Positions 1,431 through 15,564 of a DNA stretch of 32,621 nt are shown one piece after another. The translations under genes and the position numbers were made by a program. Numbering within the stretch: position 1 is the stretch's first letter; each line of letters opens with the position of its first letter. The notes under the pieces were generated by a model. The model was not told the DNA's origin, ran no database searches, and saw nothing but the letters and a program-made list of their open reading frames with translations. Source of the DNA: Spirochaetota bacterium (lineage in GTDB: Bacteria; Spirochaetota; Spirochaetia; Treponematales; Rectinemataceae); NCBI GenBank assembly GCA_008080685.1, contig VKGY01000003.1:16037-48657 (forward strand), in the 5' to 3' direction.

Positions 1431-1472
1431 TTTACCATGATTCCAAAATACCATACACTTTGGCATCATGGT
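1431..1472 (+). promoter_or_regulatory. Leaderless-type promoter embedded in a palindrome, AAA_14 ATPase gene 1
   Basis: The arms ACCATGATTCCAAA (1434-1447) and TTTGGCATCATGGT (1459-1472) are complementary at 13 of 14 positions and separated by 11 bases. The right arm contains the ATG of the ATPase gene (1468-1470). A candidate -35 TTTACC (1431-1436) and -10 TACACT (1454-1459) are 17 bp apart, which would place the transcription start on or next to the ATG. No Shine-Dalgarno sequence is present. The arrangement suggests leaderless transcription under a dimeric repressor. The palindrome is seen directly; promoter function is inferred. Confidence 0.5.
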
Positions 1473-2619
1473 ACAAAGAGAACTAGAAGCCGTTCCTCGT
1501 TCGTTCTTTCTCTTCGGTCCCCGTCAGACAGGGAAAAGCACCTGGTTGAACCGCCTTGCGCTAGAAAACACGTGGTTCATAAATTTGTTGGACAGTGAGA
1601 CCTATTTCCGATATCTGCGGGATCCCGGGCAGTTTGGACGGGAGGCGCAGGCCCGGATGCGGCAAGGCGTCGAGTGGGTGATTTTAGACGAGGTGCAGAG
1701 GATTCCCGACCTCCTGAACGAGGTTCAGAACCTACTGGATTCAACTCCCTTGCGATTTATCCTGAGCGGTTCGAGCGCGAGAAAACTGAGGCGTGGTGGT
1801 GCCAATCTCCTGGGCGGCAGGGCTCTTCTCCGGTATTTGCATCCATTTACGGTCAAGGAACTCGGCCTGGACTTCGACCTTGAGAGGGCATTGCGGTTCG
1901 GCACCCTGCCACCCCTTCAGGGGCTTGATATCTCAGAGGCCAGGGACATTCTGCGAAGCTATGTGGAAATCTACCTTCGCGAGGAAATCCAGGCCGAGGG
2001 GCTGGTTCGGAACCTAGGCGGCTTCACCCGATTCCTGGACCTCGCCGCAGCCTACGCGGGAAGCATTCTCAATTATAGTTCCCTCGGCAAGGAGGCGGGA
2101 TTGCCGGTCAAGACTGTGCAGTCGTACTTTGAGGTGCTCGAGGACACGCTCATAGGATTCCGGCTGGATGCGTGGACCCGCAGCCCGCTGAAGCGGCTGG
2201 TGGCGCATCCGAAATTCTACATTTTCGACAATGGTGTCACGAACGCCCTTGCGCGCCGACTCGCGGAGCCTCTCGATCCGGTATCGAGGGGAGGCTTGTT
2301 CGAGCAATTCCTCATTCAGGAGACCCGCCGCCGGTTTGATTACGCCCGTGCCGATGCGCGGTTGTTCTACTGGAGGACCAACAATGGAGCGGAAGTCGAC
2401 CTCGTAATCGAGGTGAATGGTCGGATCGTCTTTGCCGTGGAATTCAAGAGCCGGCCATGGGTCAGCGGCGCCGATCTTTCCGGGCTGCGCTCGTTCCGGG
2501 AGGACTGGCCGGAGGTACCCTGCCTGCTCGTCTGCACCGCACCGGAATCCTTCAACCTTGACTTTGCGGAGGTCCTTCCGTGGCGGGAATACCTGGAGCG
2601 GATTGAAAAACATGGGTAA
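1468..2619 (+). CDS. AAA_14-type ATPase with C-terminal DUF4143 domain (copy 1)
   Basis: The 383-aa protein has Walker A GPRQTGKST at residues 17-25, Walker B WVILDEVQRIPDL near residue 70, a sensor-like LSGSSARKLRRG and the GGRALLRYLHPF segment. These are typical of this STAND/ORC-like ATPase family. The C-terminal DUF4143 part contains YWRTNNGAEVDLVIE followed by VEFKS, a pattern like a PD-(D/E)XK nuclease core. The biochemical role of the family is unknown; members are highly multiplied in some anaerobes. A paralogue at 14419-15564 lies on the other side of the minus-strand defence operon. The start ATG has no ribosome-binding site and lies in a palindrome. The gene is convergent with the helicase gene at 2757-4850. 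Confidence 0.9.
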   Translation: MVQRELEAVPRSFFLFGPRQTGKSTWLNRLALENTWFINLLDSETYFRYLRDPGQFGREAQARMRQGVEWVILDEVQRIPDLLNEVQNLLDSTPLRFILSGSSARKLRRGGANLLGGRALLRYLHPFTVKELGLDFDLERALRFGTLPPLQGLDISEARDILRSYVEIYLREEIQAEGLVRNLGGFTRFLDLAAAYAGSILNYSSLGKEAGLPVKTVQSYFEVLEDTLIGFRLDAWTRSPLKRLVAHPKFYIFDNGVTNALARRLAEPLDPVSRGGLFEQFLIQETRRRFDYARADARLFYWRTNNGAEVDLVIEVNGRIVFAVEFKSRPWVSGADLSGLRSFREDWPEVPCLLVCTAPESFNLDFAEVLPWREYLERIEKHG

Positions 2620-2756: not shown

Positions 2757-4850
2757 TTATGATGAAATCAATAAATCATCCAGGAACTCAGATTTTGGTT
2801 CTACACTTGATATAAGCAGAAAATCTCGAGCACGCGTGCACGCCACATAGAGAAGGTGACGTTCGGTGTCATAAACTTCATGTAAGTCGGATTCATCACT
2901 CACTTGTTCAATCCGTTCCTGCAAGGGAATAACTTCATCATCGCAAGCCATGACTACTACCGCGCGGAACTCGAGGCCCTTGGCTAGGTTCATGGTACCG
3001 ATCGATGTGTATCCACCCATTGTTGCGACGTGTTCATCAAGGATTTTATAGGGCAATTCTGATTTATCTGCAGCTGATCGCGCGCGGTCCACTTGAGCCG
3101 TTGATCTGACGAAAATGCCCATTTCATGAGGACGAAGGCCTTCGGCTTGTCGTTGCGAGAGCCATTCGCCGACGGCCTCGGTTTCTTCACTTTCACTTTT
3201 GAGCGTGATGATTGTCGGAGGGGGTCCATTGAAAACAGAGACTGTATCGTGTCTATCCTCCCGATTGCCGTCGATATCGGTGAGTACAGGATCGAGAAGG
3301 CGGTCAGCTTGGGAACGGATTTGATGGGAAGTACGATAATTGACACGTAAAGTCTTGGAGCGGCCACGAATGTCGACGCCGAGTGATTTCCAGGAAAAAG
3401 GTTGTTGGAATATTCGCTGTCCTTGATCTCCGGCGAAAAAGAGGGTGTTTGGTCTGCCTTTGCCCAAGGCTGCGAGAAATTTTATGTGGGCAATACCAAT
3501 ATCCTGCGCTTCATCAACCACGATATAGTCAAACGGCGCATTTTTTAAGAGAGGGATCGTTTCCGCAAGGCGCGTGAATAGTACAGCCCAGGTTATCTGA
3601 CCTCGGGTTCTCAACCCCTCGCGCACCCTCTCGAAAACTGACCATGCAATAGTTCGCTGGGCTTCCGATATTCGCGTCTTTCTCCCCAAACGGGCGACTT
3701 GTCTGTAGGAATCCCAATCGCGAACTTGCCATGCGTCAACAATCTGCTCCCATTCATCGAGTAGAAAATGCAAACTGAATTTTTGCCCTACCAGCGCCTC
3801 GGAAGCCTCCTTCAGCAAGGTTTTCAATGTTTCCTTATTTACAATCGAGAACTTTCCACAATTCGAGTGAAAAAGACGAGATCCGATGGCGTCAAGAGAA
3901 TAAACATCAATTCTTTCTGCCAGCGATGGTGTGGTGCCGATCAATCGGCGCAGTTTTGTTTTTAACGAGTTGGCCAGCGGATCGGAGAATGTTGTTAAAA
4001 GCACGCGGGATTCGGGATATTTTCTTGCCAAGTAGACAGCCCGATGCAACGCAACGATTGTTTTACCGGTTCCTGCAGAGCCTGATACCCTCGCAGGACC
4101 GGCATAATCGCGTTCAACTATCTGACGCTGTTCGGGATGAAGGAATACAGTCCATTTCTCCCAAGGGTATTCGAGCGCGCGCTGCAATTCTTCCATGTTG
4201 GACATAACGCGGAAACGGCGCTGCGCATCGGGGTGTTCGAAGGGATTGGCTGGAACAATTATAGGTTCCTGAGCGCGAGGTTTCCCTCCCGTGGCCAGTT
4301 CGAGCAGAGCCTCGGAGGCTTCCGCAGGCAGGTGATCCGTTAAAGCCAGTAGAGTCTCTTCCGTTGCCTGTTTGACATCGGCAAGCCATTCTATTGGAAT
4401 TCCGTAGCTTAAGAGGGTTTCCTCGGGTATCTGTGCGAAAAGGGGAGGTCTTACGGTCGGTAAACGGTATTCTTGTTCAGCCTCATGTTTGGAGTGCAAT
4501 GGGACAGGAACATCCTTCGCTATCTCGCGGATCTCGACCAATTGGGCTGCGCCTGTCTTCGGGTGCTTCTCAAGCTTGCGGCGTTCAGCCCAGCTATACG
4601 CCTTGTCATGATGATCGACATAGCAAAGCAAAAGGCTTGATTCACTTTTATGAACAATAATCCGAATGTCAGAGTTCACTCTCACCGACCAAAAATTCTT
4701 GTCTTTTGAATTATCAATTTTGTGAAAGCTCATCCCAGGATAAGCCGGATTGAGTTGCAGGTCAAAAGCAGTAGTCTTGACAGCTTTTTGTTCATCGCCG
4801 GAAAGTCTGGCGAGACTGTCGGTAAAAGTATCGGCGATGAGGAAAGTCAT
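2757..4850 (-). CDS. UvrD/Rep-type superfamily 1 helicase with RelE/ParE-like N-terminal domain
   Basis: This 697-aa protein has two parts. Residues 1-90 resemble a RelE/ParE-type toxin fold: FHKIDNSKDKNFWSVRVN, then RIIVHK, then LLLCYVDHHDKAYSWAERR. From about residue 235 it is a superfamily 1 helicase. It shows the Q-motif-like LHPEQRQIV, Walker A GSAGTGKT (257-264), motif II VVDEAQD (to 450), motif III LFFAGDQGQRIF, motif IV NYRTSHQIR, motif V MNLAKGLEFRAVVV and motif VI LLYVACTRARDF. All core motifs look intact, so an active ATP-driven DNA translocase is expected. The two helicase halves are short compared with UvrD. It is the last gene of the minus-strand operon, 12 bp after the second DUF488 gene, with a weak ribosome-binding site. 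Whether the RelE-like part cleaves RNA or only binds nucleic acid or ribosomes is unknown. Confidence 0.9.
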   Translation of the reverse strand: MTFLIADTFTDSLARLSGDEQKAVKTTAFDLQLNPAYPGMSFHKIDNSKDKNFWSVRVNSDIRIIVHKSESSLLLCYVDHHDKAYSWAERRKLEKHPKTGAAQLVEIREIAKDVPVPLHSKHEAEQEYRLPTVRPPLFAQIPEETLLSYGIPIEWLADVKQATEETLLALTDHLPAEASEALLELATGGKPRAQEPIIVPANPFEHPDAQRRFRVMSNMEELQRALEYPWEKWTVFLHPEQRQIVERDYAGPARVSGSAGTGKTIVALHRAVYLARKYPESRVLLTTFSDPLANSLKTKLRRLIGTTPSLAERIDVYSLDAIGSRLFHSNCGKFSIVNKETLKTLLKEASEALVGQKFSLHFLLDEWEQIVDAWQVRDWDSYRQVARLGRKTRISEAQRTIAWSVFERVREGLRTRGQITWAVLFTRLAETIPLLKNAPFDYIVVDEAQDIGIAHIKFLAALGKGRPNTLFFAGDQGQRIFQQPFSWKSLGVDIRGRSKTLRVNYRTSHQIRSQADRLLDPVLTDIDGNREDRHDTVSVFNGPPPTIITLKSESEETEAVGEWLSQRQAEGLRPHEMGIFVRSTAQVDRARSAADKSELPYKILDEHVATMGGYTSIGTMNLAKGLEFRAVVVMACDDEVIPLQERIEQVSDESDLHEVYDTERHLLYVACTRARDFLLISSVEPKSEFLDDLLISS

Positions 4851-4862
4851 GATTGCCGACCG

Positions 4863-5294
4863 TTATAAATGAATGATTTCAACATTGCCCCATTTACTTC
4901 TAAGGTATTCTGCCACAAGCCGCCTATGGCAATGGGTTGGCTTATCCTCGCTGCACAGGAGGCAGCCGCTATCCAAAATTTCTTTGCTCAGGTGCTCTAT
5001 CTGGCGCGCTTTCATGAGATTTATAAATTTATTTTCGTATTCCGACCACGAACCTCCATTTTTCTTATATCCATCAAGTATATCCTGCGTCGGGGCTAGC
5101 TGTGGCATGTGCAAATATTCAATTCCGCAAATTGTTTTTCCAAAATATTTTAAGTCATCACGCTTGGCGAATCCTGCAAGTTGTGAAACATTGTTGAGTC
5201 GAATATCAATAATGGCCTTTGTTCCTGACTTCTTCAATCTCTCGAAGAAATTCTCAGCGCTTGTCTTTGTAAACCCAATAGTGTACAGCTTCAT
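4863..5294 (-). CDS. DUF488 family protein, short form (copy 2)
   Basis: This 143-aa protein begins KLYTIGFTKTSAENFFERL and has the DUF488 pattern TIGF at the N-terminus, a central IIDIRLNN (Asp-Ile-Arg) and the C-terminal cysteine motif CSEDKPTHCHR. The family is biochemically uncharacterised. The conserved Asp-Arg and Cys-His-Arg residues suggest an enzyme, but I do not assign a reaction. Its start overlaps the stop codon of the preceding DUF488 gene by 4 bp, so the two paralogues are translationally coupled and may work as a pair. It lacks the longer C-terminal extension of copy 1. Confidence 0.85.
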   Translation of the reverse strand: MKLYTIGFTKTSAENFFERLKKSGTKAIIDIRLNNVSQLAGFAKRDDLKYFGKTICGIEYLHMPQLAPTQDILDGYKKNGGSWSEYENKFINLMKARQIEHLSKEILDSGCLLCSEDKPTHCHRRLVAEYLRSKWGNVEIIHL

Positions 5295-5932
5295 TCTGTT
5301 GCTCCCGTGATAGGCAATCCATCATTTATGGGCCACGTGCCTCCATATAGTTCTTCTGCGACAAAGGCTATACGTTCTGATTGTCGAGAATACGCCTCCT
5401 CGATAATCTCCTCGTTTGTACGAAACATATCGTCAAGCTTCAAGTCAAATGTATCGAGAAGACGTTTTGTAGTTTCTTCATACGCCTCAATCGTACCATC
5501 TGCTAATATATGAGAAATCCTAGAACCCCTTTTTACTAGTTCATGAGCGACAAGAATATTTCTATGGCATTCAAGTGGATCCTTTTCCGAGCACATTAGA
5601 GCAACTTTATACTTCAATGCTCCCTCTTCTGCTCTTACAAGCCCTGACTTAAATAGTTTAGTCTTGGCGAGAAGGCCGAATTGAACCTTTCCATTCATAT
5701 AGCATGAAGGATCTTGGCTCCTTGCCCCTAATTCATTCCCAAGGTAGACATAAAGAATTCCTTGTTGCTTTAAACTCTCTTGCAACTGGCTTTTATTGAA
5801 TTGGGGATACAATTTGCTATACGGTGCTGATCGTACATCTGCAACCACTTGTATTTTATTGAGTTTTAATAGATCGACGAATTTTTCTATCGAGTGATTG
5901 GAATGTCCAATAGTAAAAATTTCTCTCTTCAT
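5291..5932 (-). CDS. DUF488 family protein, long form (copy 1)
   Basis: I start the protein at the ATG at 5932 (KREIFTIGHSNHSIEKF), which has an AAGGA four bases upstream; a GTG at 5944 is the alternative. The DUF488 features are TIGHSNHS, VADVRSAPYSK and the cysteine motif CSEKDPLECHR. A C-terminal extension of about 60 residues follows (ADGTIEAYEETTKRLLD onward), rich in charged helices and absent from copy 2. The first 77 bp overlap the 3' end of the upstream OB-fold gene, an unusually long overlap. The family has no established reaction. Recurrence of two different DUF488 genes in one defence operon suggests a heteromeric or two-step activity; this is inference. Confidence 0.85.
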   Translation of the reverse strand: MKREIFTIGHSNHSIEKFVDLLKLNKIQVVADVRSAPYSKLYPQFNKSQLQESLKQQGILYVYLGNELGARSQDPSCYMNGKVQFGLLAKTKLFKSGLVRAEEGALKYKVALMCSEKDPLECHRNILVAHELVKRGSRISHILADGTIEAYEETTKRLLDTFDLKLDDMFRTNEEIIEEAYSRQSERIAFVAEELYGGTWPINDGLPITGATE

Positions 5933-6632
5933 TGTATCCTTCACGTCGATCGGGCGTAATTATCGATGCAGCAAGGCGGAAGGCGTACCCGTTCCAAACT
6001 TCCGCGATACTGATGCACAATAAAGCGTCAGGTATAGAATAATACTGTTCTGACTTTGCAAGGTACATTTCTTCAATTTCCGGATCAGTCACTGATAGTT
6101 CATATTCCAAGTCGTGATATTGGAATTTTGCGCGAACACGTTTTCTGGATGGCCTTCCCTCAAATCCAGGTTCTGACAAAACATGAAGTTTCAACTGGTT
6201 CGGAATGATTAGCTTGAGAGAGCTTTGCATTAAATGCGCTTGAGATTCTGGTATTTTGTCATTGTGGCCATGGAGAGTGTTTTCGCCGCGAGTCCAGAAA
6301 TTTTGATCATATTGATCGACGAGGGATTGGATTTGTTTCCAATTAACTCTTCCTCTTCTCACCCAATAATATTCTTCATCAATTCGATAGTTTTCCGTCT
6401 GATGGTAGTGGGGCTCAGGGTGCTTGAGTGGTATGTCAATAATGTCAAATATTTGTGCCCTCCTGCCGTTTTCATACCTTCTCTCTTCTTCGGATATTTC
6501 TTTGGAACTTCGACTGCTCACGGGTCTTATCCATTGTCCTAGTTTTGAGCCGCTGTACTCTTTCCCTGCGATGCAACGACCAGATGGAGGCTTTCTAGAA
6601 TTAGCCAGACAAACAATGGTCTTTATATGCAT
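5856..6632 (-). CDS. Dual-OB-domain-like putative nucleic-acid-binding protein
   Basis: The 258-aa protein starts HIKTIVCLANSRKPPSGRC, followed by IAGKE and WIRPVS, a beginning I recognise from proteins annotated as dual OB domain-containing. The rest is beta-strand rich, with two similar halves in size (about 1-120 and 130-230), and the second ends with WNGYAFRLAASII. No catalytic motif was seen. OB folds normally bind single-stranded nucleic acid or nucleotides, so a substrate-recognition role for the operon is possible. The ATG at 6632 has a GAGGGGG sequence upstream and lies 9 bp after the mod stop. The last 26 codons overlap the DUF488 copy 1 reading frame. Family naming is from memory of the N-terminal signature, so moderately sure. 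Confidence 0.7.
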   Translation of the reverse strand: MHIKTIVCLANSRKPPSGRCIAGKEYSGSKLGQWIRPVSSRSSKEISEEERRYENGRRAQIFDIIDIPLKHPEPHYHQTENYRIDEEYYWVRRGRVNWKQIQSLVDQYDQNFWTRGENTLHGHNDKIPESQAHLMQSSLKLIIPNQLKLHVLSEPGFEGRPSRKRVRAKFQYHDLEYELSVTDPEIEEMYLAKSEQYYSIPDALLCISIAEVWNGYAFRLAASIITPDRREGYNEERNFYYWTFQSLDRKIRRSIKTQ

Positions 6633-6641
6633 GAATCCCCC

Positions 6642-9419
6642 TCATACCTTGAACACTTTCATGACCTCATCCCCCAAGTGATTTATCACCTTCACCGCGA
6701 TGCGGCCGGTTTTTGGCTTATCAAAGGAGCGCGAAATGTCGCCATGGAGAGTGGACCACGCATCTTCGTCGATTTCGGCCTTGAGCGTGGTTTTTAGGGA
6801 GCTATAGGGATCGTTGGCACCGAGGAAGTAGGCTTGGCGGACGAAGAAGCTTTCTTCATTGTAGTCGGAATCGATGAACCAACAGGCTATTCCGTCGGCG
6901 CTGTCAGAGATGACTTCGCCGGTTTGGGGCTTGAAAACATCGACACCGTTCACTTTCACCTTGATCTTGCCATTGGGCTCGTCGATGAGGTCGATGTCTG
7001 GTTCTCCGAAAATAACGAAAAGGTTGCCTTTGCCCGTATTCTTGAGATCATCTGCCATGTGGAGGTCGGCGTTCATGCGCGCCTTGAGGACGGGTATGCG
7101 CCCAAGCTTATTGAACTCGGTGCTGTGGGCTTCATAATTGAAGGCACAGGCGATGAGCACATCAAAGCCAGCGTCCCCCGCCTCCCGCGCAGCAGCGACG
7201 AGGTCGGCTCTCTGGACGGTACCGAATTCCGGGCCTATGAAAATTGCTGCTCTTTTTTCTATATCACCTTCAAGATAATGTCCTTCCGCGCAGACCATGT
7301 CGCCAGGCCAAGGATATAGCGCGGTGAATGAAATCTTGTCTTCCTTATGGGCTTGCTGGACTCCGGCGATTTTTAGGTTTTCCAGGATCATTTGGGGGAA
7401 AGTCTGGGCAGTGCCATAATTGAAATTTTTTTCGTTTGAAATGTCGATGAGGTCACCATCTTCATCAACGCCAAGCGTGCGATGTGGACTTAAGGATTCA
7501 ACGGTGAATGGCCCGGCCACGCGAACTTTTTTCTTATCATCGTAGGGTTTGTCGTAGAGATATTCATACTCTGCCTTGGCGGCTATGGATGCATCAATAT
7601 CCTTCTGTCTGGTTATTCGGGCTCGCCACCACTCAGCATGTACCGTTTTTATTGATTCAGGCCACGATGCATCCGCCTCTCGCGGAATTTCCCATTCTTC
7701 CCAACGCATGGCGAGAGTTGTATTCAACTTTTCTCGCAGGGGTTCAAGGATCGCTTGCCATTTTTCCCAAATAACATCGATTTCTGCGTTATTGGCGATC
7801 GACTTAAGAGTGATGTGGGGCACCCGTTCATACACAAAACCATGGCGGATGTTGCCATGAACGGCTTGCGAACGTGGCGCGTCACCAGTAATTTCAGCTT
7901 CCTTGAGCTGCCCCTCGCGAGAATCAGCTAGCAAATAGAATGGGTATCGTGCTCCCATTATTCTCGCTCTGGCGAGCGCGAGCGCCACACGCGATGTATC
8001 GATCGTGATCCATCTGCGTCCCCATTGTTCCGCGACATAGGCTGTAGTGCCTGAACCGCAGGTTGGATCGAGGACAAGATCCCCAGGATCGGAGGACATG
8101 AGAATGCAGCGTTGAACGATTTTTATATTTGTCTGGACAATATAGATCTTGTCTGTCATAAAACTACTCACGGCATCTGTCCACAGATTCGGAATTGGCG
8201 ATGCTGGGAAGTCATCAACATATCTGACATACCCTAACCTCGAAGATGTTGCTTCGATACGATTACTCATGTAAAGACGTGTCATCCCTTCGGTTTTTGT
8301 TTTAAATGATCCACCAGGAACAATATATTCTTTGCCATTAAATACATAGCTTTTTGCTCCTGCAGCGCCTTCACCGCTCCGAGTAAGATCACTAAGCGAG
8401 TAAAGCCTTTGATCGGAATTCAACTCCCCGGATTTTTCATTTGAGGACGCAGGCCGCCTATTAAATAATGCGGTTTCGATGCGATTATAGTTTGAAGGGA
8501 TGAATGAGTCGAAGCCTTTTACAGAGAATGCAGGGCGAGACTTAATCCTTTCTAAATTCTTGGCGTACCAAAGAATATAATCAACTACATTATCGATCAC
8601 CTCGGCTCTAGCTCCAGAGGTCTTCTGTACTAATATCATGCTTACAGCATTCTGTTCTCCAAACACTTCATCCATTAGAGCTCGAACTCTGTGTACATTT
8701 TCGTCACCAATTTGCATGAATATCGATCCGGATTCAGTAAGAAGATCCCGTGCAACAGTGAGTCGATCGCGGAGATAGGTCAGGTAGGAGTGGATGCCGT
8801 CGCGCCAGGTGTCGCGAAAGGCTTTTACCTGCTCAGGTTCGCGGGTTATGTGGCCTGCATTCCCATCTTTTACATCGCGGCTTGTGGTGGACCACTGGAA
8901 ATTGGAGTTGAACTTGATGCCGTAGGGCGGGTCCATATAGATGCATTGGACTTGCCCGCGTAAGCCCTCGCGTTCGGCGAGCGATGCCATTACCTGGAGG
9001 GAATCTCCAAGTATCATGCGGTTGGTCCAGTTTTGGTCGTGCTGGTAGAATTCTGTCTTATCCGCATCTTGTGGAATTCCGTTGAAGTCCGAGAAAAGGT
9101 CGAATTCTCCTTGTGGATCGACTGTTGTTCGCCCTTCCTTAGTTCTATGAATCAAATCTTCAATGAGTACCTTTGGGTGCACTTTCTCTTGGATATATAG
9201 GGGCGGGGCTGGTACGACGAGATCGCTCCAGTCTTGCTCATCCTTTCCTCGCCAGACGAGTTGGGGGTCCAGATCGGTATTGCGAGGATACTTGAGAATT
9301 TTCGGCTTAATCTCTTCCTTTTGGATCATAGGTTGATACTCGGCGGTGGGGATATTTCTTCGCTTGTCTACATCATGGCGAATAATCTCTACAGACTTTT
9401 CCTTGTTTACTTTAGCCAC
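6642..9419 (-). CDS. Type III-like Mod: site-specific DNA methyltransferase (beta class)
   Basis: This 925-aa protein has the catalytic motif DPPYGIKF (163-170) ahead of the SAM-binding motif DPTCGSGTT (451-459), the beta-class order seen in type III Mod enzymes, which methylate adenine N6. Between them lies a variable region of about 280 residues that should contain the target-recognition domain. The C-terminal 350 residues are an extension found in large Mod proteins of this kind. The start is GTG at 9419 with a strong GAGGAG six bases upstream. It is translated between the AlbA_2 gene and the OB gene. Together with the Res-like protein at 11208-14276 it should form a restriction-modification pair. 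The middle of the gene (about 8150-8750) is visibly more AT-rich than its two ends. Confidence 0.92.
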   Translation of the reverse strand: MAKVNKEKSVEIIRHDVDKRRNIPTAEYQPMIQKEEIKPKILKYPRNTDLDPQLVWRGKDEQDWSDLVVPAPPLYIQEKVHPKVLIEDLIHRTKEGRTTVDPQGEFDLFSDFNGIPQDADKTEFYQHDQNWTNRMILGDSLQVMASLAEREGLRGQVQCIYMDPPYGIKFNSNFQWSTTSRDVKDGNAGHITREPEQVKAFRDTWRDGIHSYLTYLRDRLTVARDLLTESGSIFMQIGDENVHRVRALMDEVFGEQNAVSMILVQKTSGARAEVIDNVVDYILWYAKNLERIKSRPAFSVKGFDSFIPSNYNRIETALFNRRPASSNEKSGELNSDQRLYSLSDLTRSGEGAAGAKSYVFNGKEYIVPGGSFKTKTEGMTRLYMSNRIEATSSRLGYVRYVDDFPASPIPNLWTDAVSSFMTDKIYIVQTNIKIVQRCILMSSDPGDLVLDPTCGSGTTAYVAEQWGRRWITIDTSRVALALARARIMGARYPFYLLADSREGQLKEAEITGDAPRSQAVHGNIRHGFVYERVPHITLKSIANNAEIDVIWEKWQAILEPLREKLNTTLAMRWEEWEIPREADASWPESIKTVHAEWWRARITRQKDIDASIAAKAEYEYLYDKPYDDKKKVRVAGPFTVESLSPHRTLGVDEDGDLIDISNEKNFNYGTAQTFPQMILENLKIAGVQQAHKEDKISFTALYPWPGDMVCAEGHYLEGDIEKRAAIFIGPEFGTVQRADLVAAAREAGDAGFDVLIACAFNYEAHSTEFNKLGRIPVLKARMNADLHMADDLKNTGKGNLFVIFGEPDIDLIDEPNGKIKVKVNGVDVFKPQTGEVISDSADGIACWFIDSDYNEESFFVRQAYFLGANDPYSSLKTTLKAEIDEDAWSTLHGDISRSFDKPKTGRIAVKVINHLGDEVMKVFKV

Positions 9420-9441
9420 TACAGGCTCCTCGGATCATTGG

Positions 9442-9570
9442 TTGCGAAAAAAATTGTATTAAAAATTGCGTAATTTACATTAAAAAATAGTAAATAAAGC
9501 TTATTCATATAAAGATATAACAATGAAGAATTGCGTAAAATTGCGAAGAATTGCGTAAAATTGCGTAAAA
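9442..9570 (-). repeat. Decamer tandem repeats (TTTTACGCAA) before mod
   Basis: On the minus strand the decamer TTTTACGCAA occurs at 9570-9561, 9560-9551 and 9540-9531, with a variant TTCTTCGCAA at 9550-9541, so four units are exactly in phase. A fifth degenerate unit (TTCTTCATTG) follows at 9530-9521. Two more isolated CGCAA cores lie at 9466-9470 and 9442-9446. The 10-bp period is one DNA helical turn. The array occupies the only real gap inside the operon, between the AlbA_2 stop and the mod start. It may be an operator for repeated binding on one DNA face, or a slippage-prone tract controlling mod expression. Confidence 0.85.
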
Positions 9571-9573
9571 CTA

Positions 9574-11205
9574 TCATTTTACGTCTTTACTGTTAATGTG
9601 CCATCTGGCGGCATTGGTTATACCACGAACTAAGATATGGCCTTCTGTCTCTAAATCTAATAAAAGCGAACGTACGTGATGACGATCAAGTGTTGGAAGT
9701 ACTTGTAGGAGTTCAATCATTTTTGCGCCACTAGGTTCGCTTGATTGAATATGCTTGAGGAGGAGCGCTTTATTGGTCTCTCTATCAAGCCCCTTTTTGC
9801 GTGTATGTATACCTTGTTGCCCAACTGCAGCATAAAGCTTCCTGGAAAGTATCCATGGCCGGCCTTTCAATACGGGCGACCTTTCAAGCAGTCCTAATTC
9901 AAATAGCTTCTTTGTTGAGGCTGAAAATTTGGGTGAGACTGGCCGACCCGAAAATGCTTGCTGGATAACAATGAAATCAGCAGTAGAGAAGCTTACCAAA
10001 TGTTTATTGCCGATTTTTTCCAGCACTCTTAAGAAATTCGGTTCTTTAATAGTTCCGTTCAATGTAATCCAAAAATGATCTTGATCTGTGTGAGCGAAGT
10101 CCGGTTCGCCCTTGCTCTCTCTTATACAAGACTCGAAAATTCGATTCATTCCTTGTCCTGACCGCTCGACAAGGCCGCAACGAGCGAAAGAATCTGCTAA
10201 TCGCCTGTTTCGAGGTAGTTGTTCCCATAAGATGTTTTCCAAAGTGATCCCAGGCATTAACCCGCCTGGATTTACTATTTCTATTCGTTCAGGGAATTGT
10301 CTTATAAAGATCGAAGCTCCCGAGCGATAATCGCGGTGGCTCACTGCATTGAGGATTGCTTCTCGTATAGCTAACTCATTAAAAGTCTTTATATCCAAAA
10401 TAAATAATCCGTCTTGGTAATGCTGGCTCGTGTTTCGCAAATCGATAGTTTCCCATAAGCGATCGTAGAATAAAAAAAACCCTTCTCTATACTCAACACG
10501 TTGTTGGGCAGGCCCAGAAGCATCATTGGGACGGTACTCGAAAATTACTTCGGCTTGGTTTAGGTAATGGCCTAATGCTGCATGAGTTCCAAACAGTATG
10601 AGAGCTGCATTCGTCAGCTTGTTTTTAACCATAAGTTCTGCATCGGCCAATAATTGTTTGTGATTTATTGTTAAAATTGCCTTGTTATTAGTTTTTTTTG
10701 CCCATCTAGAGCGAAATTTTTCGATCGCTTCAATGTTAAGGTCCTCAAAAGAAGCACCCGGGCATACTTCTGCCGTGAAGTCAGGACCGCTTTCATCGAA
10801 GATCCGTTTGATCATATCAGCTGACATTGCTGTCAAAGCTTGACCGGCGCGCATTAGATATCGACCATTCAGGTGGAGGGGCATTCCAATGGGTCTAGAC
10901 GGGATATGGAAAACTAATACACGACCTTCCGGGCAATATATTTCTTCCACATTTATTCTGAGGTGAACTTGAGCGATTAGTTGCTCTTTTATTTTTGCCA
11001 GATCGTCCATATAAGCACGAGTGCCAACTACTTTTCTGGGTTTTTTGTCTGTTACTCCGAGAATAAGCATACCACCCCGCTCATTCGCGAGAGCGATCGA
11101 ATACTCGATTAGCTTATCGGTATCAAAAGAGGACTCCGCTCTTTTGAATTCAATATGTTCATCTTCATTTTTCTGGAGGATAGCAATGATATCCTTAGCT
11201 TGCAT
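9574..11205 (-). CDS. Schlafen-AlbA_2 domain protein with C-terminal HATPase-like and winged-helix parts
   Basis: This 543-aa protein begins with the AlbA_2 (Schlafen core) pattern EDEHIEFKRAESS, ALANERGGMLILGVTDK. The second half carries EAILNAVSHRDYRSGASIF, VNPGGLMPGI and LVERSGQGMNRIFE, the HATPase_c_4-like signature of proteins often called putative transcriptional regulator or RecG-like. The C-terminal 100 residues look like a winged helix (TNKALLLKHIQSSEPSG, MIELLQVLPTLDRHHVRSLL). Eukaryotic and prokaryotic Schlafen-type domains can cut RNA, but activity cannot be judged here. The gene starts two bases after the res stop, with AAAAGGAAC as ribosome-binding site. It sits between res and mod, where simple type III systems have nothing. 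It is AT-richer than res. Confidence 0.88.
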   Translation of the reverse strand: MQAKDIIAILQKNEDEHIEFKRAESSFDTDKLIEYSIALANERGGMLILGVTDKKPRKVVGTRAYMDDLAKIKEQLIAQVHLRINVEEIYCPEGRVLVFHIPSRPIGMPLHLNGRYLMRAGQALTAMSADMIKRIFDESGPDFTAEVCPGASFEDLNIEAIEKFRSRWAKKTNNKAILTINHKQLLADAELMVKNKLTNAALILFGTHAALGHYLNQAEVIFEYRPNDASGPAQQRVEYREGFFLFYDRLWETIDLRNTSQHYQDGLFILDIKTFNELAIREAILNAVSHRDYRSGASIFIRQFPERIEIVNPGGLMPGITLENILWEQLPRNRRLADSFARCGLVERSGQGMNRIFESCIRESKGEPDFAHTDQDHFWITLNGTIKEPNFLRVLEKIGNKHLVSFSTADFIVIQQAFSGRPVSPKFSASTKKLFELGLLERSPVLKGRPWILSRKLYAAVGQQGIHTRKKGLDRETNKALLLKHIQSSEPSGAKMIELLQVLPTLDRHHVRSLLLDLETEGHILVRGITNAARWHINSKDVK

Positions 11206-11207
11206 GC

Positions 11208-14200
11208 CTAGTTCCTTTTCCCACTGCTGATCGACATTTCAATAATATTCGCGAACTCTGTCTCAACGCGCTCCTTAAAGTCCGATTCGATCTGGTATAC
11301 CTCGGTGAACTCTGCGAAAGCCCAACGGCCATAACCGCCCAGGTTGTTTACGCCTGGGATCCAGTAGGTATCCATCGTTGCTTTTTTTTCCTTGGCGTCC
11401 TCGCGGCGGTAGCCCTTTATCTCCACGATGAGGTGGAGGGGATCATCAAAGCCATGCCCATCGTCCACGAGTACGATGAAATCGGGAAGGTAGCGGCGGG
11501 TTTCAGATCCATACCGATAGGGTACTTCAAATCCCAAATTGTGGTTCTTTACATAGGCCAAGACCTTGGGATGGGATTCGGCCACCCTGCAGAATTCCCC
11601 TTCCCACTCCGAATCAAGGATAATCCAGTTTATATGACAATGTCTTGAGCTTGTCTCCCAGCGGTTACTCCTGGAGGTGTTGAAGCGCACGAATTTTGTT
11701 GAACCTGAGGGGTTATAAGGATCAAGGAGGGCTTTGACAGGCCGCTCTTTGATGAATTTCTGTGTGATTGCCGCAGTTATCTTGTTGCAAGCCATATCGG
11801 CGAGTTCAAGATACATAAGTTGGGCCGGATAGGTTTCGCCTACACACACTAGGTAGCTGTCTAGCCATTCCTTGACAATTCGCTTGAGTTGGCCAAATAG
11901 GAAGAGTTTTGGTTCTTCGCCAGGATCCCTGAATTTCGTGTAGAGGAGACGATGTGTCAGTTGGAAGACCAGGGTTGAAGGGCGCATGTCGGCCAGGTGC
12001 TCAAGATTCATATCAACGCCTTCGCCGATTATTCCAGAATTGCGTGTGATAGACGGTCCGACGAGATCCGGGCTCAATCTAAGTATCGAATCCTCATTAA
12101 ATGCTGCGGATAGGCGCTCTTCCGGAAGTTCCACCCGATAGCCTTCTACGCGAGGGAAGCGGATTTCTAGGGCATCTCGGTCGGGACGAACAGCCTTAAC
12201 CAGTATAGTTTGACGTGGGGGCTGAGGTGGAGCAACGACTGGCTTGGCAGTGAAGTCGAAGGGAATTCCGAAGACATCGGCATACTCTACGTTGAAAAGC
12301 CCTTCATCGTTGAGTTCATAGGACTGGCGCCTAAGTGCGCGGCCTATAACCTGCTCGCAGAGGAGTTGAGTACCAAAAGCCCGGATGCCAAGGACATGAG
12401 TCACCGTGTTGGCGTCCCAGCCTTCTGTGAGCATCGATACTGAGACTACGCAGCGGATATTTCCGCCCAACTGACCTGGTTTCCCTACCGTGTTCATGAC
12501 TTCACGCAAGAGGTCCTGGTCGGAAAAACTGTCGGCTGCGCGGAGATCGCCTGTACGTTCGATGATTTCGCGGCGGAACCGGTCGATCTCATCTTTAGCG
12601 ATCTTGCGGAAACCTTCATCCAGGACGTCGCCCGCTTCTAGCTGTTCACTGTCAATGAGAATGGTGTTCGGGCGGGGGAGTGGGTTCCCGGTAGTTTCAT
12701 CAAAATTCCTGAAAAGAGCGAGGCGGCCATTTTCCAAGGTGCTTGTTCCATCATCATTAGCCCTTTGGAATCCCGAAATGTAATCAAACACTAGCTTTGA
12801 GATGGATGTGTTTTGGCAGACAAAAATAAAGCAGGGAGGAACATCGATCCCCTTTTCCTCCCAAAGCTTGAATGTTTTTTCATAGTGTCCATAGAGGGAT
12901 TGGATGGCAGTCTGAAGCCGGGTTGGCAACTTGAGTGGATCTAAATCGCCGCTCTGCCCACGCCCCTTTTTGGGCATGTCGTGTCGAATATTGTCCCAGA
13001 GCTTCCGGAACATTGGCATTTCATCGCCTGGAATATTCTCGGCTATGGGTACACGGGGGAGTTTGACGATTCCGCACTCTATAGCGTCCATGAGGGAGAA
13101 GTCGCTCATAGTCCATGGGAAAAGGGTTCCTTCCGCGTAGCCAGAGCCTTGGAGGAAAAAGGGAGTGGCGGAGAGGTCGAACACCTTGTTGATACCTAGT
13201 TTCTTGCCCACTATTTCAAGGCCGGAAATCCATAGGCGGGCAGCCTCATTGTTTTTTTCAGCCTCTTTTTTCTCATCACCTTTGAGTTTTTCTTCATTTC
13301 CATTTATGGGCTTTTCTCGATAGCAATGGTGGGCTTCGTCATTGATTACTAGGATGTTCCCCAATCCCATGAGGTCGGGCATGACACGCTGGAGCATCTG
13401 GCCTTCTGTCTCGAGGGTATTCAACTCCTCTCCACGGCGCCCCTTGAGTAGAGCACGCCCGCCGGCCGAGAGGTCGACCCGCTCCCTTCGCTTGAAGGCA
13501 TGGTAATTGGTGATGACGATCTTGGCGCGTTTTATATCCTCAAGCATGTCATTGGGAATGAGTTCGCGGCTAGCATAGTAGCTGTCGGGATCGTTGGGCT
13601 TTAAGAGGCGCAAGCGATCTTTGATGGTAAGTCCAGGTGTACAAATGAGAAACCCGCGAGAAAAATTCTTGCTCCCTAGTCTTCGGACGGCGTTCACTGT
13701 CTGCCATGCGATGATCATAGCCATAACAGCGGTTTTTCCCGATCCGGTGGCCATCTTGAAGGCGATCCGTAAAAGTCCGGGATTGGCATCCTTGCTTGCC
13801 CTTGAAAGTAGGTCAAGGATCTGTTTACCCTGCCGATTCTGCGGGGCGACTTCGGTGAGCCAAATTGCGGTTTCTGCCGCTTCAATCTGGCAGAAAAATG
13901 GACGGATGCCGACAAATCGATGATTACGCCAATGTTTAAGGAGGCGCGCTGTTTCTGACGTCACCTGCCAGTTAGCCTCCGGGAGGGCGCGCCATTCAGC
14001 AACGTATCCGCGGACTTCATTGATAACCGATGTTGGATCATACTGCTGCTCTTTGGTTGAAAGACCCCTTCCCTCATCGAAGATGATTTCCTGCTGTGCT
14101 GCTGCATCCTTGTGCTTTTTGGGTTTGGGAATCGGCGTGAAGAAATCCGCTCTCCGACGCTTCTCAAGGATGCGCTGGGTTGGCTGACCTTCGCTATCCA

Positions 14201-14276
14201 GTTCCCAATGCTTTTGGGGACACGCATACGGTGAATTCAATATGGGATGATCGAAGAATGGGTTGGTAAGGCTAAT
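11208..14276 (-). CDS. Res-like DEAD/DEAH helicase with C-terminal PD-(D/E)XK nuclease (type III-like restriction subunit)
   Basis: Counting from the TTG at 14240, Walker A is ATGSGKT (165-171) and the DEAH-type box is VINDEAHH (298-305). They are followed by SATPFFLQGSGYAEG, SVSMLTEGWDANTVTHV and CEQVIGRALRR, the superfamily 2 motifs of Res subunits. Near the C-terminus, RYLPDFIVLVDD followed by LIVEIKGYRRED fits a PD-(D/E)XK nuclease. It resembles the large restriction proteins named after BPTD_3080. I place the start upstream of the TTG because the frame is open and encodes NPFFDHPILNSPY, which I know as the usual beginning of this family. The only start with a good ribosome-binding site (AAAGAGG, six bases away) is an ATT at 14276. 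TTG at 14240 is the conventional alternative. First gene of the minus-strand operon. Confidence 0.92.
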   Translation of the reverse strand: MSLTNPFFDHPILNSPYACPQKHWELDSEGQPTQRILEKRRRADFFTPIPKPKKHKDAAAQQEIIFDEGRGLSTKEQQYDPTSVINEVRGYVAEWRALPEANWQVTSETARLLKHWRNHRFVGIRPFFCQIEAAETAIWLTEVAPQNRQGKQILDLLSRASKDANPGLLRIAFKMATGSGKTAVMAMIIAWQTVNAVRRLGSKNFSRGFLICTPGLTIKDRLRLLKPNDPDSYYASRELIPNDMLEDIKRAKIVITNYHAFKRRERVDLSAGGRALLKGRRGEELNTLETEGQMLQRVMPDLMGLGNILVINDEAHHCYREKPINGNEEKLKGDEKKEAEKNNEAARLWISGLEIVGKKLGINKVFDLSATPFFLQGSGYAEGTLFPWTMSDFSLMDAIECGIVKLPRVPIAENIPGDEMPMFRKLWDNIRHDMPKKGRGQSGDLDPLKLPTRLQTAIQSLYGHYEKTFKLWEEKGIDVPPCFIFVCQNTSISKLVFDYISGFQRANDDGTSTLENGRLALFRNFDETTGNPLPRPNTILIDSEQLEAGDVLDEGFRKIAKDEIDRFRREIIERTGDLRAADSFSDQDLLREVMNTVGKPGQLGGNIRCVVSVSMLTEGWDANTVTHVLGIRAFGTQLLCEQVIGRALRRQSYELNDEGLFNVEYADVFGIPFDFTAKPVVAPPQPPRQTILVKAVRPDRDALEIRFPRVEGYRVELPEERLSAAFNEDSILRLSPDLVGPSITRNSGIIGEGVDMNLEHLADMRPSTLVFQLTHRLLYTKFRDPGEEPKLFLFGQLKRIVKEWLDSYLVCVGETYPAQLMYLELADMACNKITAAITQKFIKERPVKALLDPYNPSGSTKFVRFNTSRSNRWETSSRHCHINWIILDSEWEGEFCRVAESHPKVLAYVKNHNLGFEVPYRYGSETRRYLPDFIVLVDDGHGFDDPLHLIVEIKGYRREDAKEKKATMDTYWIPGVNNLGGYGRWAFAEFTEVYQIESDFKERVETEFANIIEMSISSGKRN

Positions 14277-14418: not shown

Positions 14419-15564
14419 ATGATTGACCGAACCTTGGTTCCTTTGATTGTCCAGGCCATGGCGAAGAATCCGGTGGTAGCCTTGGTGGGTTCTCGGCAGG
14501 TTGGCAAGACAACTCTCGCCAAGGTCATCGCCTCCATGGACAGCCGTTCGCTGTATCTCGACCTCGAGATTCCTTCCGATGTGAACAAGTTCAGGGATGC
14601 GGAGCTATACCTCAAGGAGCAACAGGATCGGCTTGTGATCATCGATGAGGTGCAGCGTATGCCGGAATTGTTTTCCTTGCTACGCGCCTTGGTGGATCGG
14701 GACCGGCGGCCCGGCCGCTTTCTACTCCTTGGGTCCTCTTCTCCCGGCCTGATGCGAGGCAGTTCCGAAAGCCTGGCTGGGCGGATCCGCTATTTTGAGC
14801 TTCCTCCGTTTTGCATGGAGGAGGTGGGAGTGGAAGAATTCCGATCCCTTTGGCTGCGGGGCGGCTATCCGCCGAGTTTTCTTGCTGAAGGTGAGGCCGA
14901 AAGCATGGACTGGCGCCGATCCTTCATCGCCACATACTTGGAGCGGGACATCCCGCAGTTGGGCCTCCGGGTGCCCGCAAGCCAGCTCAGGCGGTTTTGG
15001 ATAATGCTGGCCCATCTGCATGGCCAACTGTGGAACGCAAGCCGCATCGCCGCCAGCATGGAGCTTTCGGCGCCGACCATCCAACGCTACCTCGACATAC
15101 TTGAAGACACCTTCATCATCCGACAGCTTCGGCCTTACCTGGCCAACGTGGGGAAGCGGCTCATCAAGTCTCCGAAAGTCTATGTGCGCGATTCCGGCAT
15201 GGTCCATGCTCTTTTAGGCATTGAGACTGCCGAGGATCTGGCTGCCCATCCCGGGATGGGTGCATCGTGGGAAGGTTTTGTCATCGCCCAGGTTCTTGCG
15301 GCTATGCCCGAAGGGTGGCAGGCGTACTACTACAGGACTAGCGCCGGCGCGGAAATCGATCTGGTCCTGGTGGATCAAAGGCAGAGGGTGACTGCGGTGG
15401 AAATCAAGTATGTATCGGCGCCCCAGCCTCCGAAAGGTTTTTTGATTGCCTGTGGCGATCTTGGCTGCGAACGGCGCTTCATCATCTATCCCGGCGGGGA
15501 ACGATACCCCTTGTCCGGAGGTTGTACCGCTCTTCCTATCAAGGAAGCAGTCGAGCTTTTCTGA
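14419..15564 (+). CDS. AAA_14-type ATPase with C-terminal DUF4143 domain (copy 2)
   Basis: This 381-aa protein shows Walker A GSRQVGKTT (24-32), Walker B LVIIDEVQRMPEL (about 71-83), the sensor-like LLGSSSPGLMRGSSESLAGR and the DUF4143 C-terminus with YYYRTSAGAEIDLVLV and VEIKY. It is a distant paralogue of the protein at 1468-2619 rather than a recent duplicate; identity is confined to motifs. It is divergently arranged to res, with about 140 bp between the two starts. Initiation is probably leaderless, since no ribosome-binding site precedes the ATG other than the GG of the palindrome arm. The function of the family is unknown; it contains an NTPase and a nuclease-like fold. Confidence 0.9.
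   Translation: MIDRTLVPLIVQAMAKNPVVALVGSRQVGKTTLAKVIASMDSRSLYLDLEIPSDVNKFRDAELYLKEQQDRLVIIDEVQRMPELFSLLRALVDRDRRPGRFLLLGSSSPGLMRGSSESLAGRIRYFELPPFCMEEVGVEEFRSLWLRGGYPPSFLAEGEAESMDWRRSFIATYLERDIPQLGLRVPASQLRRFWIMLAHLHGQLWNASRIAASMELSAPTIQRYLDILEDTFIIRQLRPYLANVGKRLIKSPKVYVRDSGMVHALLGIETAEDLAAHPGMGASWEGFVIAQVLAAMPEGWQAYYYRTSAGAEIDLVLVDQRQRVTAVEIKYVSAPQPPKGFLIACGDLGCERRFIIYPGGERYPLSGGCTALPIKEAVELF

Follow-up and report, generated by a model that had tools for sequence, protein, structure and literature searches.

In the 32,621-nt stretch of spirochaetal DNA analysed here (the window), the gap between the AlbA_2 and mod genes of a type III restriction-modification (R-M) operon contains an array of helically phased 10-bp repeats. 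In our judgement, the AlbA_2-HATPase_c_4-winged-helix protein, whose gene directly precedes the array, probably binds it cooperatively as its cognate DNA site, and the array would then probably act as an operator at the AlbA_2/mod junction. The array most likely represents a landing strip of the preceding protein, because relatives of this protein from many bacteria carry their own, differently spelled and helix-spaced repeats past their genes.

The operon is read from the minus strand in the order res, AlbA_2-HATPase_c_4, gap with the array, mod, DuOB, two DUF488 genes and a UvrD-like helicase gene. The res gene (11208-14240) encodes a type III-like restriction helicase/nuclease and ends 2 nt before the AlbA_2 gene (9574-11205). 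The 543-aa product of the latter, the proposed array binder, consists of a Schlafen-type AlbA_2 domain, a HATPase_c_4 domain and tandem winged helices according to Pfam, a structural model and a fold search. The first gene past the array is mod (6642-9419), the type III methyltransferase gene also in the PADLOC models, with a GTG start and AGGAG at 9426-9430. It is followed by the DuOB (dual OB) gene (5856-6632), two DUF488 genes (4863-5294 and 5291-5944, the listed start of the second falling within the DuOB frame) and the UvrD-like helicase gene at the operon end (2757-4850). The DuOB and DUF488 genes match the PADLOC candidate group PDC-M45; a literature search on DuOB together with DUF488 gave no match. 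With 154 nt, the AlbA_2-mod junction is indeed the only gap of this defence operon, as the initial annotation had claimed; all other genes overlap or are at most 12 nt apart. Genes of the DUF4143/AAA_14 type flank the operon on both sides on the opposite strand (window 1468-2619 and 14419-15564). Moreover, a second AlbA_2-HATPase_c_4 gene is situated on the same contig about 2.3 kb left of the window start (L064/L071, C189 12128-13786), which is followed by GCAGGCCTGC-rich repeats whose ungapped score is not high.

The proximal part of the array comprises four in-phase 10-bp units on the minus strand (9531-9570) that start 4 nt past the AlbA_2 stop codon. On the operon strand, the AlbA_2 stop is followed by TAG, TTTTACGCAA (9570-9561), TTTTACGCAA (9560-9551), the variant third unit TTCTTCGCAA (9550-9541) and again TTTTACGCAA (9540-9531), to which a degenerate or partial fifth unit TTCTTCATTG is attached (9521-9530). 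An AT-rich stretch then separates these units from two distal copies of the same orientation, AATTACGCAA (9466-9475), 95 bp or about nine helical turns from the first unit, and TTTTTCGCAA (9442-9451), directly ahead of the mod ribosome-binding site. Four in-phase units, one of them variant, and degenerate outliers had initially been described from the letters, and the coordinates given there proved to be exact. The array received TRF scores of 82 and 70, the two top scores of the window, with the next best at 57. A search for the tandem pattern TTNNNCGCAATTNNNCGCAA returned only the array in the 2.54 Mb genome (three overlapping matches), while the reversed control gave none. The ungapped tandem score in the 150 nt past the AlbA_2 stop was 20 at period 10, which was equalled in none of 200 dinucleotide shuffles. 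Single TTTTACGCAA units with at most one mismatch occur four times in the window, and since as many were found in 7 of 100 shuffles, they are not unusual. The above-chance property of the array is the tandem phasing and not the single units.

Similar arrays are frequent behind relatives of the AlbA_2 gene. Among 67 distinct relatives, selected by protein similarity alone from a sample that leans on one phylum plus 14 named loci, plasmid records and two viral contigs, 19 have a strong array, defined as a tandem score of 12 or more within 150 nt past the stop, compared to 0 of 66 upstream flanks. The other genes of the same loci reached this score in 5 of 154 cases, all five being the same arrays viewed from opposing frames. 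An unbiased scan of periods 4-40 over 160 nt gave best periods of 10 (nine loci), 11 (eight), 12 (one), 20 (two) and 31 (one), i.e., 10 or 11 bp in 17 of the 21 flanks that reached the threshold of 12. The strong score was missed by 48 of the 67 relatives, many of which have two-copy, 11-bp spaced sites. Among the 11 nearest counted relatives with about 44% identity or more (L002, L003, L004, L022, L023, L024, L026, L027, L028, L029 and L034), a strong array was present in nine; L026 has a shifted gene end, and its repeats further down were left uncounted. Seven loci with a short flank or frame (L018, L045, L053, L063, L076, L078 and L088) were left out of the 67, hence the clear TTTAGATTTA array of L045 stands outside the count of 19. 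The viral contigs yielded no relative when scanned with the window-type alignment and one relative each with the other two AlbA_2 types, and blastn of E. coli genomes with a type I relative gave no match.

The letters of the unit vary from relative to relative, for example TTGCTTTTAA in L023, ACTTGCAACA in L024, TTGCTCCTAA in L028, TTGCACCGTAA in L034, TATGAGAACT in L005-L007, AAAAGAGATTT in L047, AACAGAGATTT in L049 and TTTAGACAAG in L056, and some relatives (L004) also have inverted copies. Looking near other copies of the operon, as the initial annotation had recommended, did reveal such an array: in L022 (69% identical and preceded by the end of a res gene), ATTACGCAATA repeats occupy the corresponding position. 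In L003 (63% identical) and L004 (46%) mod is not adjacent, yet 10- or 11-bp repeats with other letters occur directly past the stop. Upstream of the gene, copies of the respective unit gave no notable match within 400 nt at 17 of the 19 strong loci; L028 and L049 have a unit match there that was equalled in 0 of 100 shuffles each. Just ahead of the solo AlbA_2 genes of L028 (L028:4456-4998) and L004, matching frames encode related proteins of 181-182 aa, and the one tested had no match in Pfam. The family-wide recurrence of arrays at the same place with different units and their co-divergence with the protein, described below, also bear on the view that the window array is a functionless chance or low-complexity repeat. 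This view can point to the AT-richness of the gap and to single TTTTACGCAA units not being rare, but it is already largely refuted by the survey, and we find it scarcely credible.

The comparison of homologous res-mod operons points in the same direction. Repeats in the gap were found in all three operons whose res and mod flank an AlbA_2 gene (window, L100/L013 and L080/L109), those of L013/L100 being weak as a tandem (score 6-7) and judged by eye. These three operons contain three AlbA_2 types and three different units; the res and mod of the L013 operon are 89% and 80% identical to those of the window, while its AlbA_2 protein is of a different type. The comparison at a mod identity of at least 60% and with the res side retained also included four operons without AlbA_2 (L101-L104); their mod proteins are 61-65% identical to that of the window, and none has repeats before mod. 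In more distant operons with 36-42% identical mod (L105, L106 and L107), the search for AlbA_2 gave no hit and the tandem scores ahead of mod were 5-7; the partial mod matches L108, L110, L111 and L112 were left out of this comparison. In L102 and L104 res extends up to or into mod, whereas the res-mod slot is occupied by an NYN gene in L101 (3019-3672) and an MNT-HepT pair in L103 (780-1410). The slot, filled by AlbA_2 genes of three types, by NYN, by MNT-HepT or by nothing, looks like an exchange site for RNase-type genes, and the gene with its array looks like a cassette seated between res and mod. Both comparisons indicate that the array belongs to the AlbA_2 gene before it and not to mod. 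The initial annotation had described the array as preceding mod; as a property of mod it was rejected, since it follows AlbA_2 without mod and is missing from res-mod operons without AlbA_2.

Slippage of the short tandem copies had also been proposed in the initial annotation as a source of phase variation, i.e., the array would toggle mod expression. Copy numbers do differ between species that share the same or nearly the same unit, with 7.4, 6.5 and 2.7 copies in L047, L049 and L050 and 3.6, 2.2 and 4.5 copies in L005, L006 and L007. However, known phase-variable mod genes have repeats in the mod frame or promoter and copy-number variants within a population, while the window array is not in the mod frame; it is non-coding, lies outside every reading frame and is tied to AlbA_2 rather than to mod. 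The one variant unit in the window implies that slippage is limited. Furthermore, 34 of 35 plasmid records that fully cover a two-copy type have no indel, the exception being 1 nt in Actibacterium, which is a weak test. We found no support for phase variation and regard it as highly improbable.

The unit sequence tracks the C-terminal winged helices rather than the remaining protein. In 48 close pairs, whose proteins share 55% identity or more when the last 150 residues are left aside, the similarity of the units correlated with identity in the last 150 residues at 0.61 and with identity in the rest at 0.15. The partial Spearman coefficient of unit versus last 150 residues given the rest was 0.63, the reverse partial was -0.26, and the value of 0.63 was reached by 1 of 5000 within-group label permutations; for groups A and B alone, the partial coefficient was 0.46. 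The unit was kept in all 13 pairs in which the C-terminus is conserved like the rest (difference of at most 0.02), and in only 2 of 19 pairs in which it is less conserved by at least 0.10. Across all pairs of 18 loci the coefficients were 0.40 for the C-terminus and 0.39 for the rest, which is no difference, hence the contrast is confined to close pairs. Since the pairs are not independent but share ancestry, and the units were set by hand, we consider this co-divergence as strong but not proof. Two plasmid loci, L090 and L091, illustrate the pattern: their proteins share 81% identity in the last 150 residues and 97% in the remainder, their DNA is 86-97% identical per 100 nt over most of the gene, 82, 78, 65 and 72% over the winged-helix region and the repeats, and 98-100% in the next gene, and both repeat copies are altered alike. 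The sharply divergent block of L090/L091, made up of the final 350 nt of the gene plus the gap, lies between near-identical flanks, which looks like the exchange of a recognition module. The earlier suggestion that a 10-bp phase puts every site on the same DNA face, suitable for cooperative protein binding, gains support from the periods of 10 or 11 bp among the relatives and from the co-variation of unit and winged helices.

Alternatively, the repeats could be recognised as RNA in the 3' untranslated part of the mRNA, for example by being cut by the AlbA_2 domain in a feedback on the transcript, somewhat like the repeat RNAs of the ToxIN type. The array starts right past the stop and would be co-transcribed with the gene if transcription continues, and AlbA_2 domains are able to act on RNA (excerpts of PMC5862951). 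However, the period is fixed at 10-11 nt as in the DNA helical repeat, the unit tracks the winged helices and not the AlbA_2 half, and inverted copies exist in relatives such as L004. ToxIN-like type III toxin-antitoxin systems have a structured repeat RNA beside the toxin, while the RNA of the window gap folds no better than its shuffles (z +1.15) and matched no family in an Rfam search. A role as RNA element was rejected on the basis of the period, the lack of excess fold and the missing Rfam match, and we consider it very unlikely.

AlbA_2 domains can act on RNA, and in the present protein such a domain shares one chain with HATPase_c_4 (Pfam E-values of 7.8e-16 and 1e-18) and, in the structural model, with C-terminal winged helices. 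The AlphaFold2 model, with a mean pLDDT of 75.9 for the whole protein and 82.5 for the C-terminal part, contains two winged helices, which span residues about 389-453 and 475-537; this region (residues about 389-537, window 9595-10041, minus strand) co-varies with the repeat unit. A Foldseek search retrieved the DIP2311 protein from Corynebacterium diphtheriae (PDB 3LMM), a structural-genomics entry for which no function was found and the closest solved fold, across nearly the whole protein (E 2.7e-26, 19% identity), the Schlafen N-domains of SLFN11/SLFN13 for the front part, and many winged-helix proteins with weak E-values for the C-terminal part. The acidic residues E14, E19 and D53 are invariant in 6 relatives and nearly so in 15, and they are spaced like the SLFN13 active-site residues, which were taken for comparison from excerpts of PMC5862951, the correspondence being by motif alone. 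The Schlafen domain may be an active RNase.

The present data establish that the array is phased, that it is tied to this protein family, that it is missing where the gene is missing and that it co-diverges with the winged helices; from these observations we infer physical binding, cooperativity and transcriptional control of mod. Several copies of the protein would bind the units of 10 or 11 bp on one face of the DNA via their C-terminal winged helices and assemble into a cooperative nucleoprotein complex. This complex would most likely form an operator governing transcription across the AlbA_2/mod junction, so that the protein level might set the output of mod, DuOB, DUF488 and UvrD, and the distal copies just ahead of mod would represent the second half of a two-cluster operator. 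It is plausible that the array separates the expression of res and AlbA_2 from that of mod, as had been proposed initially. Between the clusters of the window, the scan for sigma-70-like promoters gave one site, at the AlbA_2 gene end, versus 1.2 in shuffles, i.e., no promoter above chance.

Shorter relatives (L030-L033, L035, L080, L082-L084, L093 and L094) have pairs of about 8-bp sites spaced by 11 bp. Often a locus contains two such pairs some 70-100 bp from each other, the first past the stop and the second ahead of the following gene. L030-L032 and L035 have a single proximal site and a distal pair, and L036 and L037 have a single repeat on each side. The next gene is hsdR in L033 and L065 (Pfam) and in L036 and L037 (annotation), and mod in L080. 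Judged by the arrangement of its sites, the window array has the same two-cluster plan as these loci. An inverted repeat, CTAGTG...CACTAG, is common to the spacers between the site pairs of L083 and L084. In another subfamily (L009, L054, L057 and L061), direct and inverted TTAACTCG-type sites cover the own presumed promoter right after the preceding gene, which is as expected of an operator. A Staphylococcus aureus plasmid (L040) also has a long AATC-based repeat run with about 11-bp spacing ahead of its AlbA_2 gene. The operator reading draws support from the location of sites ahead of hsdR, mod or res, from their grouping into two clusters and from the arrays on the promoter side.

The strong arrays are not generally followed by R-M genes. 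A recognisable same-direction R-M gene is missing after 13 of the 19, mostly judged by eye: in six of these the closest frame is encoded on the opposite strand, six others are followed by a gene on the same strand without resemblance to R-M, and in one case the contig ends. The six positive cases were identified by Pfam or close similarity (four) or by reading (L006 and L049). Hence, control of R-M genes cannot be the general reason for the array, and a docking role is kept as the main rival: the array would tether the Schlafen-type protein, a suspected RNase, to the locus that encodes it, in the form of an inert or poised filament, and phage attack would release the protein through loss of DNA or of binding. 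Such a role would suit arrays that are kept, and are often most perfect, at solo genes or beside unrelated or convergent genes, it would make sense of the SLFN13-like acidic residues, and the res-mod slot is elsewhere filled by other RNase-type genes (NYN and MNT-HepT). However, repeats in the own promoter of a subfamily and paired clusters right before hsdR or mod in many R-M operons fit an operator better, and the few sites may be insufficient to hold every protein copy; we therefore regard docking as possible but rather unlikely. An extended version, which we offer as a speculation and hold for still somewhat more doubtful, would give each Schlafen-ATPase-winged-helix defence gene a private 3' docking array that would take the place of an antitoxin protein or RNA in holding the nuclease poised. 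The winged helices and the array would then form an exchangeable recognition module, DNA itself would be the sensor or antitoxin, and the control of neighbouring genes a by-product.

The proposed operator can be compared to several known systems. As in R-M loci with controller (C) proteins, where a regulator encoded inside the locus binds operators beside the R-M gene under its control (excerpts of PMC12707154), the AlbA_2 gene sits between res and mod. However, C proteins are small, cI-like and have operators in their own promoter, while here a 543-aa Schlafen/ATPase/winged-helix protein has its repeats after the gene. RptR from E. coli defence islands represses a type I R-M island and binds three short direct repeats, two of which are needed for full repression; it is a small protein, and its 9-bp units are arranged around a TAGCTA palindrome upstream of its own gene (excerpts of PMC12255303). 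The TTTTACGCAA units differ from these TAGCTA-centred upstream repeats by their 10-bp length and their position inside the operon, and the excerpted text of the RptR paper contains no mention of Schlafen, AlbA or HATPase (PMC12255303). In the ParR-parC centromeres of R1 and pB171, direct repeats of 10 or 11 bp are bound to form a solenoid, their units vary between plasmid families, and in R1 ten repeats flank a promoter according to a reference title (excerpts of PMC9426499). ParR-parC involves a ribbon-helix-helix protein and the actin-like ParM in plasmid segregation, and the operon has no such part; Pfam searches found neither a ParM-like actin nor a ribbon-helix-helix ParR among the operon proteins searched. 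RptR and the C proteins can hence be regarded as analogues in role, and ParR-parC as an analogue in geometry.

Proteins with the same Schlafen-HATPase-winged-helix domain order have been described as widespread with BREX and BREX-related systems and as a backup effector there; this domain order at BREX loci is thus already in print, while repeats are unmentioned in these passages (excerpts of PMC12839542). Among the open-licence PMC papers listed, a literature search found no account of such arrays with AlbA_2, COG2865, HATPase_c_4 or Schlafen genes. The present analysis links a common, poorly understood defence protein to a concrete DNA target that appears legible from the sequence right past its stop codon. 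Such Schlafen/ATPase/winged-helix proteins accompany type I and type III R-M systems in the loci studied here and BREX systems in the published work, and the loci supply natural swaps and natural deletions for tests. The arrays may explain how nuclease-like proteins are restrained or how the surrounding R-M genes are controlled.
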